From: Bdellovibrionales bacterium Ga0074139
GTDB lineage: Bacteria > Bdellovibrionota > Bdellovibrionia > Bdellovibrionales > Bdellovibrionaceae
Direction of reading: 5' to 3'
Assembly (NCBI GenBank): GCA_001464795.1
Contig: LNEB01000002.1
Coordinates: forward strand, 1 to 64,000
Length of the DNA stretch: 64,000 nucleotides
Below are positions 1,019 through 14,399 of this stretch, one piece after another; position 1 is the first letter of the stretch, and each line of letters starts with the position of its first letter. The translations under genes and the position numbers were made by a program. The notes under the pieces were generated by a model. The model searched no databases, was not told the origin of the DNA, and saw only the letters and a list, made by a program, of their open reading frames with translations.

Positions 1019-1708
1019 ATGGAAATCAAAACACAAAAGCCTTGGCTTACAAAAAAGGGAAACGAATTTCCCACAGAGCAACTTCAAGAAATTAGTCGTT
1101 CTTGGGATCAATCGACTTGGGATCAGTACCTAAGCTGGTATTCATCAAAAAGTAGAGAGGAAGAAATTCAATCTGAACCCGATATTAAAAAACCTTGGTT
1201 GGATTCTGAGGGGCAACTTTTAAATAGATTAGAATTAAAAAAAGTTACAAAAAAGTGGGATGCAGAAACCTGGGATCAATACCTCACTGCTACTGTTGAT
1301 CAAGACTTTCATGAATCGGAAGTTCTTTTTGAGGATTACGAAACTCTATTAGAAGAAACTGGCCTTGAAATCCAAGTCGAATCCAAACCTTTCCCAAACG
1401 ATTTAAAAAACCAAGTTCGAAAAGCTGTTCGAGCGCTTGCACCTGTACAAAAAAAGGTAGTTATCGGGCTTTTTTACGAAGGGTATTCACAAGTAAAGGT
1501 AGGCCGTAGGCTTGGAATTTCGCAACCAACTGTACATGAAATCAAAATTATTTCTCTGAATAAAATCAAACGCTTACTGGATTTGGACCCTATACCTTCC
1601 AGCTACCTTATAGGAGGGCACAAAAATTCGGACCCTCAAAACCAAACTCAGCAAGAGCAAATTCGCGAAGTTTATCTGGCAGACCTTAAAGGGAGCTACA
1701 TCAAATGA
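1019..1708 (+). CDS. Sigma-region-4-like DNA-binding protein with N-terminal tandem repeat
   Basis: Predicted 229 residues. The C-terminal part (about 135-190) resembles a sigma-70 region 4 helix-turn-helix: LAPVQKKVVIGLFYEGYS, then VGRRLGISQPTVHEIK as the recognition unit. The N-terminal part is a direct repeat of about 32 residues, at 7-38 and 58-89. The shared pattern is KPWL-x3-G, then a Leu/Lys-rich stretch, then WD-x2-TWDQYL. I chose ATG 1019 over the in-frame GTG at 1007 because GGGGAG at 1009-1014 is then the ribosome binding site. Its stop overlaps the next start (ATGA). Its place behind the palindrome array suggests a transcription regulator of the conjugative element. Function is inferred. 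Confidence 0.6.
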   Translation: MEIKTQKPWLTKKGNEFPTEQLQEISRSWDQSTWDQYLSWYSSKSREEEIQSEPDIKKPWLDSEGQLLNRLELKKVTKKWDAETWDQYLTATVDQDFHESEVLFEDYETLLEETGLEIQVESKPFPNDLKNQVRKAVRALAPVQKKVVIGLFYEGYSQVKVGRRLGISQPTVHEIKIISLNKIKRLLDLDPIPSSYLIGGHKNSDPQNQTQQEQIREVYLADLKGSYIK

Positions 1709-2010
1709 CTTGGGAAGAAATGATCCAAAAAAGAAGACTAAAAGAAAGGTCCACCATGAACTTTCATTTAAATTTAAAAATAGGCTTTGATCGCTACCAA
1801 ATGGTTTTTGAGAAAGGACTTCGTTTCTTAAGCCCTTTAGAGCAAACAGCCGTTCTTTTACGCTTTCTACAAGCTCTCCCGATAGGCCGAGTGGCAGATC
1901 GTATGGGCATGAGCTGGGACGGTGCAGATGAATTGATTGATCGAAGTATCGCAAAACTTCGAGGGGCCATGTTCGCTGATCAAATAAGAAAATCAAAAGG
2001 TGTCGCATGA
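1705..2010 (+). CDS. Second small sigma-region-4-like helix-turn-helix protein
   Basis: 101 residues. About residues 43-90 read as a sigma-region-4-type helix-turn-helix: LSPLEQTAVLLRFLQALP, then IGRVADRMGMSWDGADELID. The 'LSPxEQ' opening is typical of region 4 of sigma factors. No region 2 is present, so it cannot be a full sigma factor. It starts in an ATGA overlap with the preceding HTH gene and ends in another with the next one, so the three are translationally coupled. The pair may act together on the upstream palindromes or the transfer promoter (inference). Confidence 0.55.
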   Translation: MTWEEMIQKRRLKERSTMNFHLNLKIGFDRYQMVFEKGLRFLSPLEQTAVLLRFLQALPIGRVADRMGMSWDGADELIDRSIAKLRGAMFADQIRKSKGVA

Positions 2011-2189
2011 AGGCTTTTCTAAAATTCTTCACCGACTGGTTCAATCGAACTTTTAATCAATCCCAGTTTGATCTTAAAGATTTCGAAAAACTAGAGTCAA
2101 AAAAATATCTTCAGTCAGTAAAGCAAAGGAAAACCGACCAAGAAGTAAAACTAATAAACGGCCCCATGGGGCCTTACGGAGGAATCTAG
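2007..2189 (+). CDS. 60-residue protein of unknown function
   Basis: Short, basic protein with an aromatic-rich amphipathic N-terminus (FLKFFTDWFNRTF) and a lysine-rich centre. It overlaps the preceding stop by an ATGA, and its own end carries the GGAGGA ribosome binding site of the next gene. This tight coupling on both sides is the main support that it is real. No recognisable family. Confidence 0.4.
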   Translation: MKAFLKFFTDWFNRTFNQSQFDLKDFEKLESKKYLQSVKQRKTDQEVKLINGPMGPYGGI

Positions 2190-2558
2190 ATGATGCATGA
2201 ATATCAATCGACTGAAGAGAACTATAAAATTTTAAGTGACCTTCCAAGTTTTGTAAAAAATGTGCGAATCGTAGGTAGTGCTAAACGCTACGATAACGAG
2301 GATCATTTCGTTTTACGCTTAAGAGTACTTCCTACACTTAAGTACTTTTTAAAAGAAAACGACGATGATTCAGAACAGTTCACAGTTTTTAGCGGTAAGA
2401 GCCACGATAGTAATAATAATATTAGATTTTACTATCCCGTAGGTTTTGGTGAAAAGATTTCGGATGAATTCATCAAGCTAAAAATTTACGAACTGAATCT
2501 GATTTGCTACCTCCAATTGAAACCCTTTGAAAAATCTTTGATTTCGCCAGCGGCTTAA
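2190..2558 (+). CDS. Hypothetical protein in the regulatory part of the element
   Basis: 122 residues, no signal peptide and no membrane segment. It contains a charged centre (KENDDDSEQ) and alternates hydrophobic and charged residues, as a mixed alpha/beta cytoplasmic protein would. The start is one of two consecutive ATG codons (2190 or 2193), with GGAGGA 6 bases before the first. It begins directly after the TAG of the preceding small gene. I do not recognise it. Its position between the regulators and the secretion operon suggests a conjugation accessory role, without direct evidence. Confidence 0.45.
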   Translation: MMHEYQSTEENYKILSDLPSFVKNVRIVGSAKRYDNEDHFVLRLRVLPTLKYFLKENDDDSEQFTVFSGKSHDSNNNIRFYYPVGFGEKISDEFIKLKIYELNLICYLQLKPFEKSLISPAA

Positions 2559-2591
2559 AAACTTAAATATTTCTTTAGAAAGGAAATACAA

Positions 2592-2999
2592 ATGAAACAA
2601 CTTTTTACAACTGCACTTTTACTTCTCGCTTGCCTAAACGCTCAAGCCTTGGATTCCGGAACTTACTCCTATGACAATGGGGCCGATACAATAATCAACG
2701 TCTATTCAAATGTGATTAGTATCGAGTCAACTTCGCAAGTTGGGGGAGCTTTTGTTCCAGAGGTTCCGTTTCCTACGATGTGCCGAATTCGGATGTGGGG
2801 TCATGTTCGGGTTGAAGATCAAGAAGGATTCTTAGTTGAAGTCAGAACTCGCGAATTAAGAAACTCGGCTGACCTTCCGAATTCAGAAGGCTGTAGTCTT
2901 TACGTTAATAGTTATAACACTACTGTTAAAAAATTTCCGCACAAATTCTATTACCATAAAAACAGTTTAAAAAAGCTCGATCAAAAGTCATCTCGGTAA
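2592..2999 (+). CDS. Secreted protein of unknown function in the transfer region
   Basis: 135 residues with a Sec signal peptide (about 1-19, cleavage after NAQA). The mature protein has two Cys, in PTMCRIRMWG and EGCSLYV, which could pair in the periplasm, and looks beta-rich. The start ATG follows AGAAAGGAAA. It sits just upstream of the pilin gene, so a periplasmic accessory of the conjugation machine is plausible. It also resembles the small lipocalin-like secreted proteins common in predatory bacteria. No family recognised. Confidence 0.45.
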   Translation: MKQLFTTALLLLACLNAQALDSGTYSYDNGADTIINVYSNVISIESTSQVGGAFVPEVPFPTMCRIRMWGHVRVEDQEGFLVEVRTRELRNSADLPNSEGCSLYVNSYNTTVKKFPHKFYYHKNSLKKLDQKSSR

Positions 3000-3046
3000 T
3001 TTCGCAAAAAAGTAATTTAAATATTCTTAAGTCAGGAGACTTCATA

Positions 3047-3346
3047 ATGAAACTTGGTTATACGGAAAATTCTATTAAACAATTAAAGTTAATTCTTTTA
3101 ATGGGCTTAACCATGGCCCCCATCTTGGCCTTTGCAAGCGTTGAATCATCACTTCAAGCCGTCCAGTCAAAACTTGTCGGCACTCTTTTACCACTCGCCG
3201 CGATCTGCGGCCTGGTGGTGGCTGGATTTAGTTTTGTGATGGGTCACGCGAATGCAAGACAGCATCTCGTGTACGCAATTGCTGGGGCCATTATTGGATT
3301 TGGAGCTGAAAGTATTATCTCTTTGATTCGGGGACTTATTCACTAG
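3047..3346 (+). CDS. virB2: TrbC/VirB2-like conjugative pilin
   Basis: 99 residues, the usual size of a VirB2/TrbC prepilin. An N-terminal leader and hydrophobic stretch end in ILAFAS, a likely signal peptidase site. Two transmembrane helices follow (about 45-66 and 73-95), joined by a short basic loop (HANARQH). Polymerised VirB2 forms the pilus through which DNA passes. It starts with ATG behind TCAGGAGAC and is the first gene of the virB-ordered operon, immediately before virB3. Identity rests on size, topology and position. Confidence 0.75.
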   Translation: MKLGYTENSIKQLKLILLMGLTMAPILAFASVESSLQAVQSKLVGTLLPLAAICGLVVAGFSFVMGHANARQHLVYAIAGAIIGFGAESIISLIRGLIH

Positions 3347-3363
3347 AAAGGGTAAAAATTAAA

Positions 3364-3714
3364 ATGGCTTTAAAAACTTCTGAAGTCTACCGCTGCCTGG
3401 ATAAAAAGACCTTAGTATTTGGCTTTGAAATTCTAGATCTGTTTTTAGTTTTTTTGGTCTTAGCAGTTTTAAATTTTGTCTTAGGCCAAGTTCCTTATAA
3501 GTTTTTCTGGACCTGGGGACCAAGCCTTATTCTGGGTTTAGCCCTTCGAATGAGCAAAGCTGGAAAACCTGATAACTACCTTATGCACGTTATACGGTAT
3601 CACTTCTCTCCGGGCATTTTAAGCGCGTTTGATCTAGCACCTCAGAAAATGAAATTTACATCTATCAAAAAGGATAAAATAAATGTCAAAAGCCTCAATC
3701 GCATCAAAACTTGA
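3364..3714 (+). CDS. virB3: VirB3/TrbD-like inner membrane protein
   Basis: 116 residues with two adjacent hydrophobic segments (about 21-40 and 46-62) after a short cytoplasmic N-terminus, then a basic C-terminal tail. This is the VirB3/TrbD/TraL layout. VirB3 works with VirB4 at the inner membrane base of the secretion channel. Its 3' end overlaps the virB4 start by 32 bases, as in many conjugation operons. It may also correspond to TraL of F-type systems. The call leans on gene order. Confidence 0.65.
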   Translation: MALKTSEVYRCLDKKTLVFGFEILDLFLVFLVLAVLNFVLGQVPYKFFWTWGPSLILGLALRMSKAGKPDNYLMHVIRYHFSPGILSAFDLAPQKMKFTSIKKDKINVKSLNRIKT

Positions 3715-6091
3715 AGTTTGGGGATTTGAGGACGAGACCCTTATTTTTAAAGATTTCTCACTGGGGTCAGTTCTCAAGCTTCAGCCAAAAGATGTCTCCT
3801 GCGCAACCGATGAAGAACTCAATACACTTCACAGCGTAACATGTGATTTGCTGAATGGTTTACCCACAGGGCTTTCGCTCCAGTTTGTGCAAGGGGTTCA
3901 CGGGGGATCAAAGAAAATAACTGACGTGCACCAGGCCTTAACGACAGAAGACGCTCAAGCGTTGGCTCAAAAGCTCATGCTTGAGCGAATAGCTCGCATA
4001 ACTGAAATGGATGATAAGGGCCTTGTGCCGACTCAAAGTCTTTATCTGATAGTCAGAAAGAATTTCGAGAAAAAGCCAAAAAAGAAGAAAAAATGGAATT
4101 TCTTCTTCTGGAGAAAACAAGATATTGAAGAAGAGTTTTCAAGAGATATCCTTGAGCCCGAACTTGCCAAGTTCAATCAAACTTTATCAAACGTTCGTCA
4201 AAGTCTTGAAAACTTAGGACTCACGTCAGAAAAGTTGACCGAAGAACAAATTTTTAAAACTCTATTTGATCAGTGGAACCCACATTACCCACTTGAAGGT
4301 CTTAACTTCAACCGAGAAGATATTCGAGATGACCTTCTTTTAAGTGACATGGTGATTTCACTCAAAGGCTTTGCTCTGGGCCAAATGCATCACCGGGTTT
4401 TGTCTTTAAAAATTATGCCAGAGCAAACTTTCGCCTCAATGAGTGAAAAGTTTCGAGAACTCCCGTTTGATTCAAAACTATTCTTGTCACTTGATGTCTT
4501 AGACCAAGACCGTGAAACGATGGCTCTTCAAACTCAGCGCCGTGTATCTTATGCAATGTATACAGGCAAAAAGGGAGTTTCAGATCTTGAGAGCGAAGCA
4601 AAGTTTAAAGAAATTGAAACACTTTTAAGTAAACGCGTACTAGGTACAGAGAAAGTATTTGGAGTGTCATTAAATGTATTACTTCGAAGTGAAGACGAAT
4701 CAGCTCTTGATGAGCAAATAGAAAAAGTTCTTCAAACAATGCGTGAGCTGTCTGGGGCTGAAGGGATGCTTGAATCTTTAGCTGCTTCATCAATGTTTTT
4801 AGAATTCTCACTTCCAAATGCCCGAGCAAAAGAAAGATCCCGGCGAATGAACACGAGTGTGCTTTCAGACTTTTTACCCATCTTCGGAGACTGGATGGGT
4901 CATAAAGTTCCTCGAATTTTGCTCAGGAACCGCAGAGGAAATGTTCTAGGATTTGATCCGTTTTCACCAACGCTTACAAATTTTAATCAAATTATTAGCG
5001 GCGGCAGTGGCGCTGGCAAAAGTTACTTAACAAACATTATGATTTCACATCTTTTAAAAGAAAACCCGAAAGTTTTTATTTTAGATATTGGCGGCAGCTA
5101 CAGAAAGGTTTCAGAAACTTTAAATGGACAATATATTCCACTGGGCGCTGATAGTCAGATTTCACTAAACCCTTTTGATCTTGTCGATCATTCGCCCGAA
5201 GCGATTGATCAAAAAATTAAGTTTATGACATCTCTTGTGGAGCTGATGACTAAAGAGGATGAATCAAGCGGCATTGGAAAGTTAGAGAGATCTGAAATAG
5301 AGCAAATGATTAAAGAAATTCTTCGAGATGAACAAGAACCCCGCTTAAGTCATTTACGCGAGAAATTACTTCAAAACCAAGAGCCAGCCCTTAAACGGAT
5401 GGGGAAAATATTAGGCCCTTGGTGTGGGGATTCGCCTTTTGGTAAATTTGTAGATACTAAGACAAACTTAGAACTTCAAAGCCGGATTGTGTGTTTTGAT
5501 TTAAAAGGCTTAGAATCTCAACCTGACCTACAAGCCGTTTGTTTATTTCTCATTACAGATCTCATCTGGCGTGAAGTGCAACGAGACCGCATCAGTCAAA
5601 AGTTTGTAGTGTTTGATGAGTGCTGGCGTCTTTTAGAAAATGAGGCAGGATCTAGGTTTATTGCAGAAGTTTTTAGAACTTTTCGAAAGTATAAAGCGTC
5701 CGCGATTGCGATTTCTCAAACGATGGATGATTTCGCCAAGTCCAAAGTCGCTTCAGCCATTTTACCGAACTCTTCTGTCAAATGGGTCTTGAAACAAACT
5801 GGTGGCAATATTCCACACTTAAAGGAAATTCTACTTTTAAACGAAAGAGAAACAAGGCTTGTTGAAAGTTTGACTTCAAAAAAAGGATATTTTTCAGAAG
5901 CATTTTTAATTGCAGGTGACGAAAAGCAAGTTGTGGTGATCGAAAGTACGCCGCTCGAATACTGGCTTGCAACGACTGACCCACAAGATTTAAAAGTCAT
6001 GGAAGAGTTCCGGTTAAAAAATCTAACGATGCCTGAGACTGAGCTCCTTGAACTTTTAGCTGAAAAATTTCCACGCGGGGCCTCTGCTTAA
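3683..6091 (+). CDS. virB4: VirB4/TraC conjugation ATPase
   Basis: 802 residues, the size of VirB4. This is the main ATPase of the type IV secretion channel, working at the inner membrane in pilus assembly and substrate transfer. The N-terminal VirB4/CagE-type region precedes a RecA-like motor domain. Walker A GGSGAGKSY is near residues 439-447, Walker B VVFDECW near 641-648, and a sensor-like SQTMDDF follows. A Lys-rich stretch (KKPKKKKKW, about 130) is unusual. The start ATG is fixed by AAAAGGA at 3669-3675 inside the end of virB3. It is flanked by virB3 and a VirB5-like gene. Confidence 0.9.
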   Translation: MSKASIASKLEVWGFEDETLIFKDFSLGSVLKLQPKDVSCATDEELNTLHSVTCDLLNGLPTGLSLQFVQGVHGGSKKITDVHQALTTEDAQALAQKLMLERIARITEMDDKGLVPTQSLYLIVRKNFEKKPKKKKKWNFFFWRKQDIEEEFSRDILEPELAKFNQTLSNVRQSLENLGLTSEKLTEEQIFKTLFDQWNPHYPLEGLNFNREDIRDDLLLSDMVISLKGFALGQMHHRVLSLKIMPEQTFASMSEKFRELPFDSKLFLSLDVLDQDRETMALQTQRRVSYAMYTGKKGVSDLESEAKFKEIETLLSKRVLGTEKVFGVSLNVLLRSEDESALDEQIEKVLQTMRELSGAEGMLESLAASSMFLEFSLPNARAKERSRRMNTSVLSDFLPIFGDWMGHKVPRILLRNRRGNVLGFDPFSPTLTNFNQIISGGSGAGKSYLTNIMISHLLKENPKVFILDIGGSYRKVSETLNGQYIPLGADSQISLNPFDLVDHSPEAIDQKIKFMTSLVELMTKEDESSGIGKLERSEIEQMIKEILRDEQEPRLSHLREKLLQNQEPALKRMGKILGPWCGDSPFGKFVDTKTNLELQSRIVCFDLKGLESQPDLQAVCLFLITDLIWREVQRDRISQKFVVFDECWRLLENEAGSRFIAEVFRTFRKYKASAIAISQTMDDFAKSKVASAILPNSSVKWVLKQTGGNIPHLKEILLLNERETRLVESLTSKKGYFSEAFLIAGDEKQVVVIESTPLEYWLATTDPQDLKVMEEFRLKNLTMPETELLELLAEKFPRGASA

Positions 6092-6126
6092 AAAAACTTA
6101 TTTAACCTTTTAGAAAAGGAAAATCG

Positions 6127-6819
6127 ATGAAGAAACGAATTTCCAGTTTCATCCTAGTGGTCTGTCTTCTTGTGCCAATTCCTAAAACGGCACGCGCTGA
6201 TCTTTTTGGCGCAGACGTAGCAGTTCTTATGCAAATTTTAGTAAACGCTGTTCAACAACTCGCCCAGCTTCAAGCCATTTTAGATAAAGGCAAAGACACT
6301 CTAGGTCTATTAAAAGATATAAACCGAGGGATTAATGATTCCCTTAACATGGCTGAAACTTTGGGTTTAAGGATTGATCCAGGGCTTTACCGAGATTTAA
6401 GAAAAATTGATCAGGCAGTGGGATTAATTGAGTCGCTGTTTGGCCGAGCTGTGGATTCAAAACTTGCCACAGTTCAAAGAAATACGGACCAAACCGTGGC
6501 TGAAGCACTAACGTTTAATAATGAACTGAATGACTACGCAAGGAAGCTTGACCGAATTGGTGAGGAAATTAAAACTTATTCTCATTCGGTATCTCCTGGG
6601 GGAGCTGCAAAACTGACGGCTCAGTCCTTGGGTGTTGTGATTCACGTCCTAAATCAACAAATGAGAGCCACAGGCCAGGGGCTTAAACTTCAGGCTCAAG
6701 CACTCGCGATTCAAAACAAACAAGAAAAAGATAAGACAGAGCAATATTTAAAAGAAGGTGAAAAATTAAAACAAAAAATGCAATCAATTAACGCAAGCTT
6801 TGAAACGCCGAGGTTTTAA
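6127..6819 (+). CDS. virB5: VirB5/TrbJ-like secreted conjugation protein
   Basis: 230 residues with a signal peptide (about 1-25, cleavage near ARA-DLF). The mature part is almost entirely helical with long heptad-rich stretches (QQLAQLQAILDKG and a Lys/Gln-rich C-terminal coiled coil). That is how VirB5 and TrbJ proteins look, and VirB5 is a minor pilus-tip adhesin. ATG follows AGAAAAGGAAAATCG. Only the position between virB4 and a VirB6-like gene makes the call specific, because sequence conservation in this family is low. Confidence 0.6.
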   Translation: MKKRISSFILVVCLLVPIPKTARADLFGADVAVLMQILVNAVQQLAQLQAILDKGKDTLGLLKDINRGINDSLNMAETLGLRIDPGLYRDLRKIDQAVGLIESLFGRAVDSKLATVQRNTDQTVAEALTFNNELNDYARKLDRIGEEIKTYSHSVSPGGAAKLTAQSLGVVIHVLNQQMRATGQGLKLQAQALAIQNKQEKDKTEQYLKEGEKLKQKMQSINASFETPRF

Positions 6820-6820
6820 G

Positions 6821-7684
6821 ATGGATATGACTTGGCTTGCGAGTGAGGCAAAACAAATTCACTCTCTTTTTGCTAATTTATTTTATAGCATCGTGCTCAC
6901 CCTACTTCTAATCGGCGTTGTTTTAAATTACTTCCGCATGCCATTAGGACAGGTGCCAGAATTTATGATTTTGGTCGGTCGTGCCATTTTAGCAGCTTTT
7001 ATATTAGTCGCCTTGCCTGAGATTATGAATACTTTAGCTGATTTTACGGATCAACTTTCGCGCGAAGTGGGAGAGCTTAATAATTTAAAGCTCGTTGTTT
7101 CAAGACTGGGTGAAAAAGTGGGAAATTTCACTTGGTCTTGGGTATCGATTAAAGATTCCGTTCTTTTACTGATCAGCTATTTAACTTTCTTTTTTCTCTA
7201 TGTAAGCGTTTATATGGCTGACACTCTTTTTCTTTTTACTTGGACCTTGCTTTATATTTTCTCACCCATTTTGATTGCAGCTTTTGTCTTACCTGCAACG
7301 GCACCGGCAACAAAGGGCCTATTTCAAGCTCTGTTTGAGGTGTCGTGCTGGAAAGTGACTTGGTCTGTGCTCGCTGCCCTACTTTGGAGCTTTGCTCTTT
7401 CAGAAATTAATAAGCCTGAGTATGACGTGGATTTTTTAACCGCCATTTTACTTAATATTATGCTGGCCTTTTCAGTTGTCGCGACTCCACTTATTGTGGG
7501 GAAACTTTTAAGAGGTGGCCTTCACTCGGGTGCCGCAGTTTTGGGTGGAGTCATTTTAAGTGCAGTGAGTATGACGCCATCAGGGATTATGAATAAAGCA
7601 AAAGACCAAGCTCCCAGAGATTTGGGTTCGTTTAAATCCCGAAAAGACGATGATTCCGAAAATAAATCGAAACGACCAACTTAA
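6821..7684 (+). CDS. virB6: VirB6/TrbL-like polytopic channel protein
   Basis: About 287 residues with at least five transmembrane segments, including VLTLLLIGVVLNYF, ILAAFILVALPEI, VLLLISYLTFFFLYV and LLYIFSPILIAAFVL. A charged tail (KSRKDDDSENKSKRPT) follows. The central 'YIFSPI' motif after a hydrophobic loop is typical of VirB6/TrbL, the inner membrane subunit that handles DNA during transfer. I chose ATG 6821, two bases after the virB5 stop, over an in-frame TTG at 6800 that lies inside the preceding gene. GAGG precedes it. Confidence 0.7.
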   Translation: MDMTWLASEAKQIHSLFANLFYSIVLTLLLIGVVLNYFRMPLGQVPEFMILVGRAILAAFILVALPEIMNTLADFTDQLSREVGELNNLKLVVSRLGEKVGNFTWSWVSIKDSVLLLISYLTFFFLYVSVYMADTLFLFTWTLLYIFSPILIAAFVLPATAPATKGLFQALFEVSCWKVTWSVLAALLWSFALSEINKPEYDVDFLTAILLNIMLAFSVVATPLIVGKLLRGGLHSGAAVLGGVILSAVSMTPSGIMNKAKDQAPRDLGSFKSRKDDDSENKSKRPT

Positions 7685-7716
7685 AAAAATATTATCCAAA
7701 TGGAGGTAACAACAAG

Positions 7717-8259
7717 ATGAGATTTTCATCAGCCGTTGATTCTTTGACAAAAGAAAATCAATTCTTACGCTTTTCAGTTAAATCTTTAACTTTCACAAGT
7801 CTTATACTCGCACTCACTGTCATATTCTTGCACGACAGAAGCCCTGTCGTAGTCGAAAGGTCGTCTAGGGGTCTTGAGATTGTGAAAATGTCAGAGCTTA
7901 TTCGAAGTGAGAATGATCTAGAACTCGCTTTAAGACTTATGATCAAGGCCCGTTTTGATTCGGAAAGTATAAGTTCAGAAGTTTTTTTATCAAACAGGCA
8001 ACTGGAACTTAAAAATTTAGAGCAAAAGGAAATGAAATCACGTGGGCTAGTACAAAACATTGTTTTTCGTAAAGCCCAAGTTTCAAAAGAAGAAGCCATT
8101 GTTGAATTTGACCGAATTCTCTCCATTGGGGAAATCAGGTCAGCTCTTAAAACAACGGTAAAAGTAGCATTTGAGGAAACAGAACCAAATGAACTAAACC
8201 CTTACGGACTAAAGCTTGCCCTTGCCGTGCCATTAGAGAAAAAGGAGGAGAAGAAATGA
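7717..8259 (+). CDS. virB8: VirB8/TraE-like inner membrane assembly factor
   Basis: 180 residues: a short cytoplasmic N-terminus, one transmembrane helix (about 25-41, SLTFTSLILALTVIFL), and a periplasmic domain of about 135 residues. This is the bitopic layout of VirB8/TraE proteins, which nucleate the inner membrane complex and contact VirB10. The start ATG is preceded by ATGGAGGTAACAACAAG. Its end overlaps the next gene by ATGA and carries that gene's ribosome binding site (GGAGGAG). Assigned from topology, size and the B6-B8-B9-B10 order. Confidence 0.65.
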   Translation: MRFSSAVDSLTKENQFLRFSVKSLTFTSLILALTVIFLHDRSPVVVERSSRGLEIVKMSELIRSENDLELALRLMIKARFDSESISSEVFLSNRQLELKNLEQKEMKSRGLVQNIVFRKAQVSKEEAIVEFDRILSIGEIRSALKTTVKVAFEETEPNELNPYGLKLALAVPLEKKEEKK

Positions 8260-8642
8260 GGAAGTATTTTTTTATTATTATAGTTTCCATCCTTTGGGGA
8301 TGGGTATTTTTTAGTCATGCAGTTCAAGAAAAAGAAAAAACAATTCCTTGCGATGATAAAAAGCCACGTCCTGTGCGGGTGGCTCGTGGACGCGTCACGG
8401 TTATCAACTTTCCTTTTAAGCCAAAAGAAGTCGTACCGGGCGAAGTCATTTTTGATTTCAAGCAGATCAAGAACGATCTTATCATAAAAGCCCTTAATAA
8501 ATCAGGGCGCACGAACGTGATCGTATATTTAGAAGAGCGCAGGTGTGCTTTTGATCTGATTACGGTGAGTTCCAAAGGCGATGACATTCTAATTGTGAAA
8601 GATCCTAAGGATTCTCAGGTTGAGGTGAAATTTTATGAATGA
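8256..8642 (+). CDS. virB9: Short VirB9/TraK-like outer membrane complex protein
   Basis: 128 residues with an N-terminal hydrophobic signal or anchor (about 4-22) and a beta-rich periplasmic domain (VRVARGRVTVINFPF, then NKSGRTNVIVYLEERRC). It reads like the N-terminal half of VirB9/TraK. Full VirB9 is about 270-300 residues, so the C-terminal domain that binds VirB7 and lines the outer membrane pore is absent. Cys at the CDDKK and RRCAF positions may pair. It overlaps virB8 by 4 bases and virB10 by 8. Confidence 0.55.
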   Translation: MRKYFFIIIVSILWGWVFFSHAVQEKEKTIPCDDKKPRPVRVARGRVTVINFPFKPKEVVPGEVIFDFKQIKNDLIIKALNKSGRTNVIVYLEERRCAFDLITVSSKGDDILIVKDPKDSQVEVKFYE

Positions 8643-9555
8643 AGGAAAGCCCAGTGAAGTCTTAATTGAAAGAGAAGGGAAAACCTGGAGATGGGGGCAA
8701 AATGAATATTTTAAAACTTGGAATGGTTTAAAGCAGACCTTTAATATTGCAGCCCTTAAAATCATCGCTCTTCCCCTCGCGATTGTAATTGGAATTGTGA
8801 CTTTCTTCTTTTCTGGAAAAAAAGAATTAAATGATTCTCGCGGTAGTCCTGTTCAGGTCCCGACTTTAAGTGCAGCTGATCATGTCCTTCAAGCTCCCAT
8901 CTTGAGCTCTCAAAATACAACGAACGCAATTCCTAAACTTCGTGTTGGCGTGGGCGTTGTAGGCAGAATCAAAGTTTTCAATCTCCGAGATCTTTCCGAA
9001 ATTCCTGTTGGTAGCGAGGCTAGGGCTATTTTAGTAAGTGGCGCTTCAAATGGAATTGTGAAAGCAAAACTTATTTCGTCCCTACTTGTCGATGGTGATC
9101 CTGTATTGCCAGTCGGAACAACTCTCTTTGGTAAAGGCTTATCACAAGATGAGAGGCTTTTTGTCGAATTTAAAAAAGCCATTTTCCCAACCGGAGAATC
9201 GTTTAGTATCCGAGCCCAAGCCTTTGATGTGGCAGATAAAATTTTAGGATTGAAAGGAGCTTTCGTCGGAACGAGAACCAAAAAAATGGGAATAGCCATT
9301 GGCTTTGGATTTCTAAGTGGAATGGCTGAAGGTCTTCAAGAAACGAGCGGCTCAAATTTTTGGGGACAAACTCAAAAAAAATCGACAAGGGATGCGGCCC
9401 TATCTGGGGCTTCGAAAGCAACGCTAGATCAAAGCCAAGCTTACCTAGATGAAATGAAGAACTCGCCCCATATTATTGAAGTTAAAAAAGGGACTGAGTT
9501 TTATCTGATAATCGATGAACCAAAACCAAAAGAGGAGTCAGAATTTGGAAAATAA
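8635..9555 (+). CDS. virB10: VirB10/TraB-like envelope-spanning channel protein
   Basis: 306 residues: cytoplasmic N-terminus, one transmembrane helix (about 43-60), a linker, and a periplasmic TrbI/VirB10-type beta domain. Typical strings are IPVGSEARAILVSGASNG, LPVGTTLFGKG and VEFKKAIFPTGESFSI. VirB10 spans both membranes and senses ATP energy from the coupling ATPase. A glycine-rich helix (GIAIGFGFLSGMAEGL, about 221-236) matches the antenna region. It overlaps its virB9-like neighbour, and the end contains the AGAGGAG that serves the FtsK-like gene. Confidence 0.75.
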   Translation: MNEGKPSEVLIEREGKTWRWGQNEYFKTWNGLKQTFNIAALKIIALPLAIVIGIVTFFFSGKKELNDSRGSPVQVPTLSAADHVLQAPILSSQNTTNAIPKLRVGVGVVGRIKVFNLRDLSEIPVGSEARAILVSGASNGIVKAKLISSLLVDGDPVLPVGTTLFGKGLSQDERLFVEFKKAIFPTGESFSIRAQAFDVADKILGLKGAFVGTRTKKMGIAIGFGFLSGMAEGLQETSGSNFWGQTQKKSTRDAALSGASKATLDQSQAYLDEMKNSPHIIEVKKGTEFYLIIDEPKPKEESEFGK

Positions 9556-10903
9556 GAAAAATCAAAAAGACCTGAGTGACATACTTTTTAACATAGGTCG
9601 ATTTTTAATAATGGCAGTTGAAGAAATCGTATCGGGAATTATTAATAACCGAGTACCTGCTAAAATGTGCTATGCCGGTATGACGTTAGCGATACTTCTG
9701 TATTTTCGTATTGATGCTGACCTGATAAAAGCTCTTGGTGTAAAGTACCACCTTAATTCAAGCTTAAGAAATTTTCTCATTTACTCAAGCTTGCTCTCCG
9801 GCTGGTTTCTCTGGGGAATCATGAGGGCGATTCAAAGAAGTCGACTTTTAAATCAACTTAAAAATGCCTTTGAAGCCGCGAACTTAAAATGTAACGGTCG
9901 CTATCCTTCACTGATTGAAGATGTGAAAATTGACGAGTTTGTTAGAAAGCTAAGACTTATCACTCACGGGGTCACGAAATCTGATTTCGAAAAACAAATC
10001 GAGCGCGTGGAAGCAGTTCTAAACATGACGGCCGTTAGAATTATTCAAGAGGATAATGACAAAAGTAAAATAGAAATCGTCTACACCATGAAGGATTTAG
10101 AGAAAAAAGCAGTGCTTGAAAACCCAGATGCTTTTGCTGATGGCGAGATCCCGATTGGTGAAACCTTTGAAGGTGCCATCCACGTGAACATGAGGGATGT
10201 GGGTCATATTTTAGTCGCTGGTCAAACTGGTGGTGGAAAGTCTAACTTTTTAAAAGTTGTTACAACAGTCTTAACGAAAAATAATCCAGACGCTAAAATT
10301 ATTTTTCTTGATTTTAAAGGTGGCATGGAAACAGCTGACTTAAGAAATCATGCGAAAAACTTAGGAAGTAATATTCAATGCTTTGATGGCACCAAACGCT
10401 GTGTGGAAGAACTTGTAAGAATTGGTATGACGTTAGAAGAACGATTTAAAGTCTTATCTCAATTTGGGGCTTCAAATTTTGATGATTACTTAAAGAAAAA
10501 AGTTAAGAAAGCTATAGCGACCCAAGAAACCGTAAGACATCAAGACGAAAAAAGAACTTATATCATCATAGACGAAATTGCCCAGCTCTACTCAAGAGAG
10601 CCTGAAGTTGATAAAGAAGCTCTCAGCAAGGCCCGAGCTTCGGTCAACCGCATTGCTCGGCAAGGTCGAGCAAGTGGCGTGCATTTAATTGTGGCGACAC
10701 AAAAGCCTGACGCTTCAAGTTTTGATCAAACCGTAAAAGCAAACTTACCAGCCGTTCTTTGTTTTCCGATGGCTAATCAAGTTTCAAGCGTGTCCGCAAT
10801 CGGAACCAAAAGGGCTTTTGAGATTAATCCGAATATCAAGGGCCGAGCTGTTTGGAAATTTGGTCCAAAACTTGAGGAGGTGCAAACTTACCTCTTTGGT
10901 TAA
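9545..10903 (+). CDS. FtsK/SpoIIIE-type coupling ATPase
   Basis: About 453 residues. Two transmembrane segments near the N-terminus are followed by an FtsK/SpoIIIE motor domain: Walker A GQTGGGKSN (near 225), a LDFKGG motif, Walker B YIIIDEIAQ (near 339), then QGRASGVHLIVATQKP. FtsK-type motors act as coupling proteins in Tn916-like elements; here it would deliver DNA to the VirB channel. No VirD4/TraG gene is seen. I favour TTG 9545 because AGGAG at 9532-9536 fits it; the ATG at 9515 lacks a binding site. Gamma, the KOPS-reading domain of chromosomal FtsK, is missing. Confidence 0.8.
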   Translation: MENKKNQKDLSDILFNIGRFLIMAVEEIVSGIINNRVPAKMCYAGMTLAILLYFRIDADLIKALGVKYHLNSSLRNFLIYSSLLSGWFLWGIMRAIQRSRLLNQLKNAFEAANLKCNGRYPSLIEDVKIDEFVRKLRLITHGVTKSDFEKQIERVEAVLNMTAVRIIQEDNDKSKIEIVYTMKDLEKKAVLENPDAFADGEIPIGETFEGAIHVNMRDVGHILVAGQTGGGKSNFLKVVTTVLTKNNPDAKIIFLDFKGGMETADLRNHAKNLGSNIQCFDGTKRCVEELVRIGMTLEERFKVLSQFGASNFDDYLKKKVKKAIATQETVRHQDEKRTYIIIDEIAQLYSREPEVDKEALSKARASVNRIARQGRASGVHLIVATQKPDASSFDQTVKANLPAVLCFPMANQVSSVSAIGTKRAFEINPNIKGRAVWKFGPKLEEVQTYLFG

Positions 10904-10926
10904 AAATATTTAAGTGGAGTAACAAA

Positions 10927-11835
10927 ATGGAAATTAAAAAAAGTACGTCAAAAATAAATCATAACTTAGGTAGAAGTGGTAAGCGCCAGGTCTTTACCGA
11001 GAGAGACAATAAAATCCTACAATTCTTATGGAAATGGAAACTTGCCTCCACCGCCACCGTTCATGAGGCCATCGGAAGGCCTCTGACTGAGTACTCGACC
11101 TATAAGGCACTTGAACGATTAGCCCGGAATAAATTTGTTGAAACTCGTTATACATTCGAGCAAAATTTCTCATCTTGGATCTTAACGGATAAAGGATTTG
11201 AAGCAATCAGAGCTGGTCTTGGAGATTTGTGTGAAGAGGGCTATGGATCTGAAAATCACTGGCATGATCGAAACGTTGTGGCTTTTCAACTTGGTGAATG
11301 GGCCACGCACCAATTTCCAATTGTGACACATTTTGGTGAGCAGGAAATGCGCAGACGAAGAGTTGACTATTATCCGCCCTGGGTGCCAAATTCTAAAGAT
11401 CACAGGCCAGACGGCTACACCAGAATCCTGACAGGTGAAAAAGAATCAGTCTTGGCTTTTGAAGTAGAACTTTGGGCAAAATCTCTTGCAACTTACGAGA
11501 CGACCCTAAGATTTTATGACTTGATGAAAAAAATCTCACGAGTTTATTGGCTGATCGGAGATCCTTACGTGAAGGATTTAGTCCTTCGTGCTAAGGCTTG
11601 CATTCAAGATACGTCTCAAAATTATCATCTGTTCGTGGATTTACATGATTACTTAAAATCCGGCTGGGATGCACAAGTTTTAAACGAGCGGTCAGAAAGG
11701 CTTGGCACTTTCAGAGAGAACATGCAGGGACTCTGCGGGGACAGTTACGGGAAATATTTGGGTAATATACAGGGACAATCCAAGGTATCGGTCCATTACG
11801 ACACACGAAAAGTCCTAGGAAAAAAGAGGACTTAA
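10927..11835 (+). CDS. Replication-relaxation (Replic_Relax) family protein, candidate relaxase
   Basis: 302 residues. The N-terminal third is a winged-helix-like domain (TERDNKILQFLWKWKLAST, then a second helix pair). The middle carries a nuclease-like signature: HRPDGYTRIL (about 158-167), then AFEVELWAKS (about 177-186) and YETTLRFYDL. The PDG...ExEL.xK pattern resembles the PD-(D/E)XK fold described for Replic_Relax proteins, which are linked to mobile element replication and mobilisation. No HUH relaxase is visible, so it is the best candidate for the nicking enzyme (inference). It directly follows the coupling ATPase. Confidence 0.6.
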   Translation: MEIKKSTSKINHNLGRSGKRQVFTERDNKILQFLWKWKLASTATVHEAIGRPLTEYSTYKALERLARNKFVETRYTFEQNFSSWILTDKGFEAIRAGLGDLCEEGYGSENHWHDRNVVAFQLGEWATHQFPIVTHFGEQEMRRRRVDYYPPWVPNSKDHRPDGYTRILTGEKESVLAFEVELWAKSLATYETTLRFYDLMKKISRVYWLIGDPYVKDLVLRAKACIQDTSQNYHLFVDLHDYLKSGWDAQVLNERSERLGTFRENMQGLCGDSYGKYLGNIQGQSKVSVHYDTRKVLGKKRT

Positions 11836-11986
11836 GTCACACGCGCTCGCGGGAACAAATTCCAACTGACTACCCCTCAAACCTGTTCTTAAAATATCTT
11901 CCTTGTCACATTATATCTCACTCGCTCACCTCTATCATCATTTGCTTCGCACTTTAAAAAATTAAAAAAAAGAAAGGACTTCTGTG
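11836..11986. other. Intergenic gap behind the relaxase candidate, possible oriT
   Basis: 151 bases without a gene. It contains CGCG-CT-CGCG at 11842-11851 and GGAA-CAAA-TTCC at 11852-11863, followed by pyrimidine-rich sequence. Such short dyads beside relaxase and accessory genes are where an origin of transfer would be expected, but nothing here matches a known nic site. Confidence 0.25.
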
Positions 11987-12211
11987 ATGAAGAAATATCA
12001 TCTGCTGATTTCTATTATTTATATTCTCACGGCCTGTGCAACGGGCCCCAAGAAAGTTTCAAATCAAAACTCTAAAGTGGACCCGCCTAAATTATTAAAA
12101 CCCATTGTTAGAAAAATCTGGATTCCGCCCGAAATCAGAAACGGTGGCGCTGAATGGGTTGAAGGACATTATTTGTTTCGAATTGAAAAGGAGACCTCAT
12201 GGAGTCGGTAA
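11987..12211 (+). CDS. Small outer membrane lipoprotein, VirB7-like candidate
   Basis: 74 residues. Signal peptide with lipobox LTAC (Cys near 17), then a short periplasmic part with the conspicuous segment WIPPEIRNGGAEWVEGHYLF. Small lipoproteins of this size stabilise the outer membrane pore (VirB7 with VirB9, TraV in F-like systems). VirB7 is otherwise missing from this operon, so this is the likely replacement. I use ATG 11987 rather than the GTG at 11984 because AAAGGA at 11973-11978 gives better spacing. Its end overlaps the next gene by 13 bases. Confidence 0.55.
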   Translation: MKKYHLLISIIYILTACATGPKKVSNQNSKVDPPKLLKPIVRKIWIPPEIRNGGAEWVEGHYLFRIEKETSWSR

Positions 12212-12717
12212 CTGATCTCAAAGAGAAAAAAGTTAAACAACCAAAAAATATCGAGCGCGTGACTCTTGGGGGTCAAGAATCTGACAAGGTGATGGCTTGG
12301 CTTAAACAACTTCATGAGTCTTCAAAAGGGTTTTTGTCACTTACGAAATCAGATCTCATAAATTTCTTAATCAGAGATCATAAGTTAGACTTGAGCCCCA
12401 AGGAACTTCATCAGCTTCGAACCGATCACTATGACCCCATCAAGCATATCAACTGGATTGCACCCCGAATTAAAGAAGCGCTCCAGAATCATGATCAAAA
12501 GCTTGTAGCTGATCTTCAAATTGAACTTCGGAGTGTTGAGCTATCGGTTATTGATTTAGCCGCTCAAGGCAAGCCCCTTAAGCCGACGCTCGAGAGAAAG
12601 AAGACTTCAAGAAAAGAAAAAAATAAACCAACTTCAGAGGAGAATCTTCAAAACGAACGAATTCGTTTCGAAGATTTGCAAAGTGAAATTCCTGTGACAT
12701 CTAACGACGAAGATTGA
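12199..12717 (+). CDS. Putative accessory DNA-binding protein of the element
   Basis: 172 residues, no signal or membrane segment, strongly charged. Residues about 20-65 (ERVTLGGQESDKVMAWLKQL, then LTKSDLINFLIRDHK) look like a short strand followed by two helices, reminiscent of ribbon-helix-helix relaxosome accessory proteins. The C-terminal third is a lysine/glutamate-rich tail. It starts inside the lipoprotein gene behind AAAAGGAGACCTC. The neighbours (relaxase candidate, excisionase, integrase) suggest DNA processing, but no family can be assigned firmly. Confidence 0.4.
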   Translation: MESVTDLKEKKVKQPKNIERVTLGGQESDKVMAWLKQLHESSKGFLSLTKSDLINFLIRDHKLDLSPKELHQLRTDHYDPIKHINWIAPRIKEALQNHDQKLVADLQIELRSVELSVIDLAAQGKPLKPTLERKKTSRKEKNKPTSEENLQNERIRFEDLQSEIPVTSNDED

Positions 12718-12732
12718 TTTTTCAGAGGGGGT

Positions 12733-13014
12733 ATGGTGAAATTAAAAGATAAAAGAGTGAATAAAAATTCACTCTCGCTCTTTCAAAATAAAATAGGTGG
12801 AGAAATTGGTAATCGTGACCCTCTGAAAGAGGTTGAAGTTTTCTTGTCGCCAAAAAATGCGGCTCGATATTTGGATGTCAGTGTGAAATTCATTTATGAA
12901 CTTATGCAAACAGGCCGAATCGAAACTCAACCCATTGGAGGCCGATTAAAAAGAATCAAAAAAGGAACTTTGGATAAATGGCTAACTGCTCAAGCTATGA
13001 AGTTTGAGAGGTAG
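12733..13014 (+). CDS. xis: Excisionase-family (HTH_17) DNA-binding protein
   Basis: 93 residues. Residues about 36-85 match the MerR-like helix-turn-helix of excisionases: FLSPKNAARYLDVSVKFIYE, LMQTGRIE, then GGRLKRIKKGTLDKWL. These proteins bend DNA at attachment sites and favour excision by the partner integrase. AGAGGGGG precedes the ATG. The integrase gene begins 3 bases after this stop, so the two are almost certainly co-transcribed. Confidence 0.75.
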   Translation: MVKLKDKRVNKNSLSLFQNKIGGEIGNRDPLKEVEVFLSPKNAARYLDVSVKFIYELMQTGRIETQPIGGRLKRIKKGTLDKWLTAQAMKFER

Positions 13015-13016
13015 TC

Positions 13017-14150
13017 ATGTCAAAAAAAATTATACAAAAAAGTTATTCCAGACAGGACGGCACGGTTTTCTATAGAAAATCGATACGGATTAATGGTGAA
13101 AAAACCGAAAAAGTTTTTTCACGAAAGTCTGACAGCGAAAGATGGTATCTCGAGAAGAAACGAGAGAAAGAGCTAGTTGAAGGTGGTCTTGGGCGAGTGA
13201 GTTCAGTAATTACGATTAAGAATTATGCGAAAGAATGGCTCGATGAGCGTAAAGCCAATGGTAAACCAGTAAGTTCTTGGTCTATGGACGAGACAAGACT
13301 GAGGCTTTATATCATTCCACAATTTGGTGATCGAGAGCTGAATAAAATATCGACCAGGGAATGGGAAGCTTTTTTAGGTAGCTTAGTTGCGGATGAGTTG
13401 ATCGGTCCTGCGACAAGAAACCGAATCAGATCATTAGCAAATAAAATGTATAACGATGCCCTTCGAAAAGGAGAAGCCGCTCATAATCCCGTGCGAGTGA
13501 TCCCAAAACTAAAGGAATCTATGGAAGCATGGGACTATTGGACTTCTGGTGACGAGATTTTAAATTATCTAGCAGAAGCAAAAAAAGAAGCTCCAAGCTT
13601 TTACTTATTTGCTTGCCTGTCACTTAATCTAGGAATTCGTATTGGCGAAGTATTAGCCTTAGATCATTCTGACGTTAATATCAGCCAACGTCGTGTTCAC
13701 ATAGCGAAGACGTTCGAAGAAGTTACCGGAATAGTTTTCAATCGTGTTAAGGGAAATAAAGAGCGATGGCTTGGGCTAAATGATTCAATCACAGAAGTTT
13801 TGATTGAATACAGAAACCAGACGTCATTTCGTCGTTCAAACGAACCTTTAATATGTGACGATAACGGCGCTCGGTACTTTGCTAGGAGCATTCGTAAGAC
13901 CCACGAAAAGGTTTGTAAACGTGCTCAAGTTAAAGATATCCGAATTCATGATCTGAGACACACGTACGCTAGCCATTACGTCATGAATGGCGGAACTTTA
14001 GCTGAGCTGCAAGCATTGATGGGACATTCAAGTCCCATGATGACAATGAAATATGCGCATCTTGCTCCAGGATACTTAGAAAAAAGAGCGGGAGTTGTGT
14101 CATTCTCATTGCCAAAATCCAACGTTATTTCATTGCGCAAAATTGATTAA
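13017..14150 (+). CDS. int: Tyrosine integrase of the conjugative element
   Basis: 377 residues, the usual size for element integrases. An N-terminal arm-binding region (AP2-like, about 1-55) and a SAM-like core-binding domain (about 65-150) precede the catalytic domain. The full active set is visible: R208 in LGIRIGEVLAL, HDLRH with H311 and R314, H337 in LMGHSS, and nucleophile Y346 in MKYAHL. The gene points towards and lies about 160 bp from the 3' end of tRNA-Leu, the likely integration target. It appears intact, so the element may still be mobile. Confidence 0.9.
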   Translation: MSKKIIQKSYSRQDGTVFYRKSIRINGEKTEKVFSRKSDSERWYLEKKREKELVEGGLGRVSSVITIKNYAKEWLDERKANGKPVSSWSMDETRLRLYIIPQFGDRELNKISTREWEAFLGSLVADELIGPATRNRIRSLANKMYNDALRKGEAAHNPVRVIPKLKESMEAWDYWTSGDEILNYLAEAKKEAPSFYLFACLSLNLGIRIGEVLALDHSDVNISQRRVHIAKTFEEVTGIVFNRVKGNKERWLGLNDSITEVLIEYRNQTSFRRSNEPLICDDNGARYFARSIRKTHEKVCKRAQVKDIRIHDLRHTYASHYVMNGGTLAELQALMGHSSPMMTMKYAHLAPGYLEKRAGVVSFSLPKSNVISLRKID

Positions 14151-14280: not shown

Positions 14281-14310
14281 CCAACCTCTCGATATCTTTC
14301 GAGAAGTTGG
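14281..14310. repeat. 12-bp inverted repeat ending in the tRNA CCA
   Basis: CCAACCTCTCGA (14281-14292) pairs with TCGAGAAGTTGG (14299-14310) with one mismatch (G-U in RNA) and a 6-base loop. The right arm contains the encoded CCA of tRNA-Leu. It may be a processing hairpin or the inverted core of the attachment site. Confidence 0.5.
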
Positions 14311-14399
14311 TGCCTCGGGCCGGACTTGAACCGGCACGCCCCTGTAAAGGAAGCTCAGGATTTTAAGTCCTGTGCGTCTACCAGTTTCGCCACCGAGGC
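14308..14399 (-). tRNA. tRNA-Leu (anticodon UAA)
   Basis: Read on the minus strand, acceptor GCCTCGG pairs with CCGAGGC, followed by discriminator A and encoded CCA. The anticodon stem-loop CAGGA-CTTAAAA-TCCTG gives anticodon TAA. A long class II variable arm and the T-loop GGTTCAAGTCC are present. A promoter lies upstream and a terminator downstream. Its 3' end faces the integrase, the usual situation for an integration site. Confidence 0.95.

Follow-up and report, generated by a model that had tools for sequence, protein, structure and literature searches.

A family of predicted conjugative elements in Bdellovibrionota with a TcpA-type motor, a MOBC-like relaxase candidate and a VirB channel

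The stretch of DNA considered here, called the window throughout, comprises the first 64 kb of contig C2; the assembly, of a Bdellovibrionaceae genome, totals 2.9 Mb in 15 contigs. Most of an integrated element lies at the contig edge, at positions 1019–14150, and the gene order and coordinates given in a preliminary description of this DNA hold: regulators are followed by virB2-B3-B4-B5-B6-B8-B9-B10, an FtsK-type motor, a Replic_Relax-like protein, a lipoprotein, a helix-turn-helix (HTH) protein and a tyrosine integrase adjoining a tRNA-Leu gene, with all protein genes on the forward strand. The proposal that this is a conjugative-type element is borne out by the recombinase at tRNA-Leu, the VirB operon and the existence of relatives whose copies in different bacterial families are near-identical to each other.

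Within the VirB operon, Pfam support is strong for the VirB2-like pilin (3047–3346; TrbC/VirB2, 5.9e-9), the VirB4 ATPase (3683–6091; P-loop_TraG, 4e-41; TraC_F_IV, 2.7e-7) and VirB10 (8635–9555; TrbI, 6.3e-18), as it is for the motor and the integrase. It is weak for the VirB3-like protein (3364–3714; TraL, 0.0013, below cut-off), which is also placed by position, and for VirB9 (8256–8642; CagX, 0.014). The VirB5-like protein (6127–6819) has no Pfam support and is recognized by position and by conservation, with 47–77% identity across elements; the VirB6-like membrane protein (6800–7684), with no meaningful Pfam match, is likewise placed by position and conservation, and the VirB8-like protein (7717–8259), with no Pfam match, by position and size. 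The VirB9 of the window has only the N-terminal domain, its 128 residues falling some 100 C-terminal residues short of relatives of 215–263 residues, and VirB9 relatives match CagX down to 1.5e-11. Such a short VirB9 (122–161 residues) is found in 27 of the 31 copies taken from loci of the class that carry a TcpA-type motor. VirB11 and VirD4 are absent from 1019–14150, and no VirD4 profile scores above cut-off among the scanned open reading frames (ORFs) of the window; the virB order, the two absences and the length of VirB9 that had been noted earlier hold. The assembly has no sequence to the left of position 1, where an HUH relaxase or a VirD4 gene would, according to the preliminary description, have refuted its reading.

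The coupling position directly after virB10 is taken by an FtsK-type motor (9515–10903; FtsK_SpoIIIE, 1.4e-18), as had been recognized, and profile comparisons place it specifically in the TcpA family. A profile built from 33 such motors aligns with PDB entries 6o1w–6o1z over 310 positions (4e-63), and the match extends to the region that precedes the motor; for FtsK chains in the PDB the score is 8e-40 over the motor alone, and no VirD4 chain is among the matches listed. The title of entries 6o1w–6o1z is “DNA translocase coupling protein”, and from this title together with a review (PMC12857230) we take them to be TcpA of pCW3. Among the plasmid matches listed, the one with the best E-value is a protein of pCbo51 (Enterocloster), a plasmid typed as MOBM; the homologue belongs to a pCW3-like tcp operon and has tcpD- and tcpE-like neighbours, and the family motor profile gives it 235 bits, compared with 127 for the host’s own chromosomal FtsK. 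Near the N-terminus, before the motor, are two modest hydrophobic stretches (around residues 23–43 and 56–76), in keeping with the membrane anchor of TcpA coupling proteins. Judged by these profiles, the coupling slot is occupied by a TcpA-family motor that is nearer to TcpA than to FtsK or VirD4. Two further plasmid candidates were set aside: an FtsK match on a Gram-negative Falsirhodobacter plasmid has phosphorothioation genes rather than conjugation genes as neighbours, and on the Myxococcus plasmid pYRE the VirB4 is related but the coupling protein is of TraG type, with a weakly MOBC-like protein encoded after it.

The next gene (10927–11835) encodes a 302-residue protein with a winged helix and a predicted PD-(D/E)XK-type domain. 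It had been described as a PD-(D/E)XK relaxase candidate; profiles, motif and structural model now relate it to an established family, MOBC, which was not named at the time. The NCBIfam MobC profile matches 46 of 56 relatives (best 2.4e-19; window protein, 1.8e-5), although the relatives’ scores, where given singly, all fall under the 200-bit subfamily cut-off. The Replic_Relax profile, which gave the protein its earlier label, matches 23 of the 56 relatives, the best of them above its cut-off and one TcpA-linked relative at 1e-12, and Replic_Relax has been equated with the CONJscan MobC profile (PMC5357655). Alignment by hhalign to the CloDF13-type MobC reaches 95.9% over 172 columns that span both the winged helix and the catalytic domain. 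The motif P161-D162 ... A-x-E179-x-E181 ... K185 ... Y190 is nearly invariant, with D162 and E179 each conserved in 55 of the 56 sequences, E181 in 54 and K185 in 53, and the same PD..EVE..K pattern is present in MobC.

A structure prediction from four sequences gave a modest model with a nuclease-like core (pLDDT 71, pTM 0.67), in which a winged helix is followed by a helix-strand-strand-strand-helix-strand arrangement that places the acidic motif residues on or beside strands; a single-sequence model was discarded (pLDDT 33). Foldseek returned weak matches for this model, FokI first (not significant) and then PaqCI. The structure matches listed by VIA cover the winged helix only (MarR-type; Z 12, root-mean-square deviation 3.8, 80 residues aligned), and because winged-helix matches fill that list the nuclease domain was barely probed there, so the absence of nucleases from it is uninformative. 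Of the 82 cases examined, 54 have the TcpA gene immediately beside the MOBC-like gene, and in most of these the two genes overlap or touch; the ratio of nonsynonymous to synonymous substitution in the MOBC-like gene is 0.05–0.25 in the pairs where it is measurable. The host genome has no gene matching PF03432 (HUH) or PF02486 (MOBT), other relaxase families not having been searched genome-wide; with this result and the nuclease-like core of the model, neither of the findings named beforehand as refuting the proposal was made in the sequence available. A tblastn search of plasmids with the MOBC-like protein gave no match, and no relative was found in the viral contigs scanned. On this evidence we regard the protein as a divergent MOBC relaxase candidate of PD-(D/E)XK type, with a predicted nicking activity. 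That it acts as a relaxase is further suggested by its being kept beside VirD4 as well as beside TcpA, and in elements that lack VirB genes.

The arrangement in the window is one instance of a widespread pattern. The same genome has two further copies with this order, one on contig C12 and one on C15, whose motors and relaxase-like proteins are about 30% identical to those of the window; the C15 copy carries a large serine recombinase and ends in a tRNA-Met gene. The relaxase-like-protein profile matches 66 of 144 genomes of the class, and the motor profile matches 72 of 369 genomes of the phylum at E-values of 1e-60 or better. In loci from other families and classes, nearly all of the complete ones follow the order B2-B3-B4-B5-B6-B8-B9-B10, motor, relaxase-like protein, lipoprotein, small protein and recombinase; a few loci consist of the motor, the relaxase-like gene and recombinases only. 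Because the order recurs in two divergent copies within one genome and in dozens of relatives, the gene set is not a chance assembly. The preliminary description had spoken of an unusual hybrid, and the combination of VirB genes with an FtsK-type motor is indeed there, but as a phylum-wide family and not as a one-off. The recombinases vary between tyrosine and large serine types, and many of the elements face the 3′ end of a tRNA or tmRNA gene. In L093 and L094, two loci from different genera, transfer genes that are 82–89% identical go with different targets, a tRNA-Met in one and a tmRNA in the other, which would fit an exchange of the recombinase module.

Related elements place a TraG/VirD4 protein in the coupling slot before a MOBC-like gene. 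One of these is a fourth VirB-type element of the same genome (C12:206280–217845; L107, L108), whose coupling protein is VirD4-like and whose MOBC-like protein has 283 residues; it lies about 20 kb from the TcpA-type copy on C12. In elements without VirB genes the MOBC-like gene and a recombinase remain, accompanied in some by a TraG-type ATPase, and these elements resemble mobilizable ones. On the VirB4 tree as drawn, two changes between TcpA and VirD4 are needed yet a single one is permitted, and several independent swaps are therefore not claimed.

A Pfam scan of 85 further ORFs, in which 25 of 47 families are among the matches listed and a weak single relaxase match in a relative could be hidden, gives some indication of what else these elements carry. 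For the unlabelled element ORFs, with the VirB-less L079, L096 and L099 among the loci scanned, an AAA_21/AbiEii-like ATPase, a BrnT toxin and a Cap15 domain are among the matches listed, and these may possibly represent defence cargo on mobile elements. Group II intron maturase domains (RVT_1, GIIM) are among the matches listed for two of the 85 ORFs, probably the two of equal length that immediately precede virB3 in a pair of elements from different families (L047:12978–14240 and L071:3243–4505). The contig of one further locus, L041, is identical to one contig of genome G066.

A sign of movement comes from two loci in different families, L068 and L069, which have 8.9 kb in common at 96.4% identity, compared with 66% for the core gene IMPDH, and whose flanks diverge abruptly behind the integrase at the right end. 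This pattern suggests a recent copy that moved horizontally between families. In the window, the integrase (13017–14150; Phage_integrase, 2.6e-27) faces the 3′ end of its likely target, a tRNA-Leu gene with anticodon taa (14308–14399, reverse strand). The right attachment core is predicted at 14307–14367, 61 bp of which a genome of the same genus has two copies, 4.5 kb apart, at this tRNA-Leu (G034:C13:24791–29419; L119). The insertion between these repeats carries toxin-antitoxin-like ORFs and no recombinase was seen in it; the duplication shows that this site has been used for integration. A left attachment site (attL) was sought as a direct repeat of the 3′ part of the tRNA-Leu gene, and none was found, either within the first 4 kb or in the rest of the genome; the ptsI-side flank of the related genome does not fall at a contig end in the host genome, and at the ends of most other elements no convincing direct repeats of at least 12 bp were found.

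Between the relaxase candidate and the integrase are three small genes: a lipoprotein with a lipobox-like N-terminus (11984–12211), a candidate VirB7 with relatives at the same place in more than 30 loci; a conserved 172-residue protein (12199–12717) with relatives in most elements and no Pfam match, possibly a relaxosome accessory protein; and an HTH_17 protein (12733–13014; 3.6e-10) directly 5′ of the integrase, which is a candidate excisionase. At the other end, a sigma-70 region-4-like regulator (1019–1708, in an ORF that opens at 1007; Sigma70_r4, 6.8e-7) and a second, short one (1705–2010; Sigma70_r4, 6.6e-4, below cut-off) each have a relative in the C15 copy, and a conserved 122-residue protein before virB2 (2190–2558) has relatives in both sister copies and at many loci. 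To the left of the regulators, a secreted-looking 126-residue ORF with no Pfam match (243–623) may be element cargo or host DNA.

Three 14-nt palindromes of the GTGCGNNNNCGCAC type (799–812, 851–864 and 880–893) lie 0.1–0.2 kb upstream of the first regulator and are candidates for an operator or an origin of transfer (oriT). The triplet is present in four related elements (that of the window, L045, L046 and L049) with spacings of 52–56 and then 28–29 nt, and its sequence differs by element and is of three kinds (GTGCG.., TCCCA.. and TTCCA..); those of L045, L046 and L049 score 29–30 of 30 against a shuffled maximum of 24. The same spacing with different sequence resembles a binding site predicted to co-evolve with an element-coded protein. 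That the palindromes are a proven oriT is unsupported, operators being possible. A CTTA-N8-GGCAY motif is present between the palindromes and the gene, or just inside the gene.

Considering these features together, the window element is very probably an integrative and conjugative element (ICE), one of a family found throughout Bdellovibrionota that combines a TcpA-type motor, a MOBC-like relaxase and a VirB channel. In the mechanism we propose, the integrase and its HTH partner would excise the element from tRNA-Leu as a circle; the winged helix of the MOBC-like protein would bind a site on the element and its PD-(D/E)XK domain would cut one strand; the TcpA-type motor, encoded directly upstream in the operon, would take the processed DNA and pump it into a VirB2–B10 channel that works without VirB11 and VirD4; and the recombinase would integrate the element in the recipient. 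Gene content, protein families, conserved order, purifying selection and the recent copy present in two families are seen in the sequence itself. Several points weigh against this reading. Excision, nicking, contact between motor and relaxase, transfer and the strandedness of the DNA moved are things we infer, no transfer, excision or nicking having been observed. The left end and attL of the window copy are missing because base 1 of the window is the first base of the contig, and no oriT was identified in the element. The 302-residue protein scores 24 of 200 bits against MobC, under the curated cut-off, and the Replic_Relax profile does not match it directly; at the third catalytic position, which is K in the classical motif, it has E, as does MobC. 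The names VirB5, VirB6 and VirB8 rest on place, size and conservation. Most of the genomes are drafts, and the mis-binning of one draft contig could explain the copy that L068 and L069 share.

Other explanations of the same genes have to be considered. The 302-residue protein could be a winged-helix regulator of transcription or replication, with some other, unrecognized relaxase acting in trans; its winged helix does resemble MarR-type regulators and the Pfam family is named for replication-relaxation. Yet its most conserved residues are in the second domain, which matches MobC, the protein is the constant gene of VirB-less elements, and the two relaxase families searched genome-wide, PF03432 and PF02486, have no member in the genome, so we find this idea quite improbable. 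Type IV secretion systems often turn to protein export, and the hosts are related to predators; one could imagine that the VirB channel now delivers proteins, for example into prey, and that the motor and the MOBC-like protein are left over from an element that was once conjugative. For Vampirovibrio, a role in predation has been suggested for a VirB system (PMC4451040). Against this, the motor and the MOBC-like gene are under purifying selection, the recombinase and regulators are retained, and the elements have a patchy distribution (TcpA in 72 of 369 genomes), cross families and are missing from many genomes of the class; such a role is very improbable.

A different question is whether the DNA crosses as a single or a double strand. 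TcpA, to which the motor is nearest, has been proposed to transfer double-stranded DNA (PMC12857230), and the motor might pump double-stranded DNA across the envelope after a double-strand or delivery cut by the MOBC-like protein. The PD-(D/E)XK fold also serves enzymes that cut double-stranded DNA, FokI (a weak match) being the first that Foldseek returned. Against this, the protein is homologous to MOBC relaxases, and related elements couple the same slot to VirD4, a single-strand coupling protein; moreover, we know of no precedent for a VirB channel carrying double-stranded DNA. We consider transfer of this kind unlikely and prefer the reading of the family as ICEs in which a MOBC-like relaxase cuts one strand.

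It is informative to compare these predicted ICEs with known systems. MOBC relaxases (CloDF13-type MobC and pAD1 TraX) have a winged helix and a PD-(D/E)XK-type domain like those predicted for the 302-residue protein, the same motif (PD..A(F)EVE...KS..RY) and the same place directly 3′ of the coupling-protein gene; the 302-residue protein, with its predicted nicking activity, differs in being only about 20% identical, in its longer C-terminus and in having TcpA and not VirD4 as its partner. TcpA of pCW3-like plasmids and of ICEs of the Tn916/ICEBs1 type has the same FtsK-like motor, N-terminal membrane segments and pre-motor region, and the profile matches over the soluble part. The earlier comparison with Tn916-like elements was right as to FtsK-type coupling and too narrow otherwise, because the closest solved relative is TcpA. 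In those systems TcpA works with Gram-positive MPF_FA channels and with MOBT, MOBM or RCR-type relaxases (PMC5357655, PMC5704250), whereas here it is found with VirB2–B10 and MOBC. From VirB/MPF_T systems the elements have the same virB2-B3-B4-B5-B6-B8-B9-B10 order, with VirB4 and VirB10 supported by profile, but no VirB1, VirB11 or VirD4 was seen, VirB9 lacks its C-terminal domain, and a lipoprotein gene lies behind the relaxase gene. The IME_Class_8 elements of streptococci (MobC, VirD4 and a serine integrase) have the same compact block of coupling protein, relaxase and recombinase, and the serine-recombinase elements described here look alike; the streptococcal elements use VirD4, have no channel of their own and are Gram-positive. 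Finally, islands at tRNA genes that resemble ICEs have been suspected in the same phylum, in Bdellovibrio bacteriovorus, although these were inferred from insertion sites and a transposase and the text names no VirB or FtsK genes (PMC3539863).

According to a 2025 review, the VirD4 family covers all Gram-negative type IV secretion systems and TcpA is restricted to some MPF_FA systems (PMC12857230), and a survey of streptococcal mobilizable elements never found TcpA together with MOBC (PMC5357655); the Bdellovibrionota family repeatedly breaks both of these rules. A VirB channel with MOBC and VirD4 is already known. The replacement of VirD4 by TcpA, with MOBC and VirB genes in a diderm, was not found in the searchable literature, most subscription journals lying outside it. 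Since similar operons have either TcpA or VirD4 beside the same type of relaxase, they constitute a natural swap experiment that could show what the coupling protein contributes and which form of DNA is moved. It is unlikely, but worth stating, that conjugation in these diderms sends double-stranded DNA through a VirB channel by means of an FtsK/TcpA motor, or sends DNA that a PD-(D/E)XK enzyme has cut and to which no relaxase is covalently bound; if true, such a mode of conjugation would be undescribed in Gram-negatives and phylum-wide in these predators. The family provides a concrete candidate for the ICEs suspected in Bdellovibrio since 2012 (PMC3539863). Because the same set of TcpA, MOBC and VirB genes recurs across the phylum, it is probably a main route of gene exchange of these mostly predatory bacteria.

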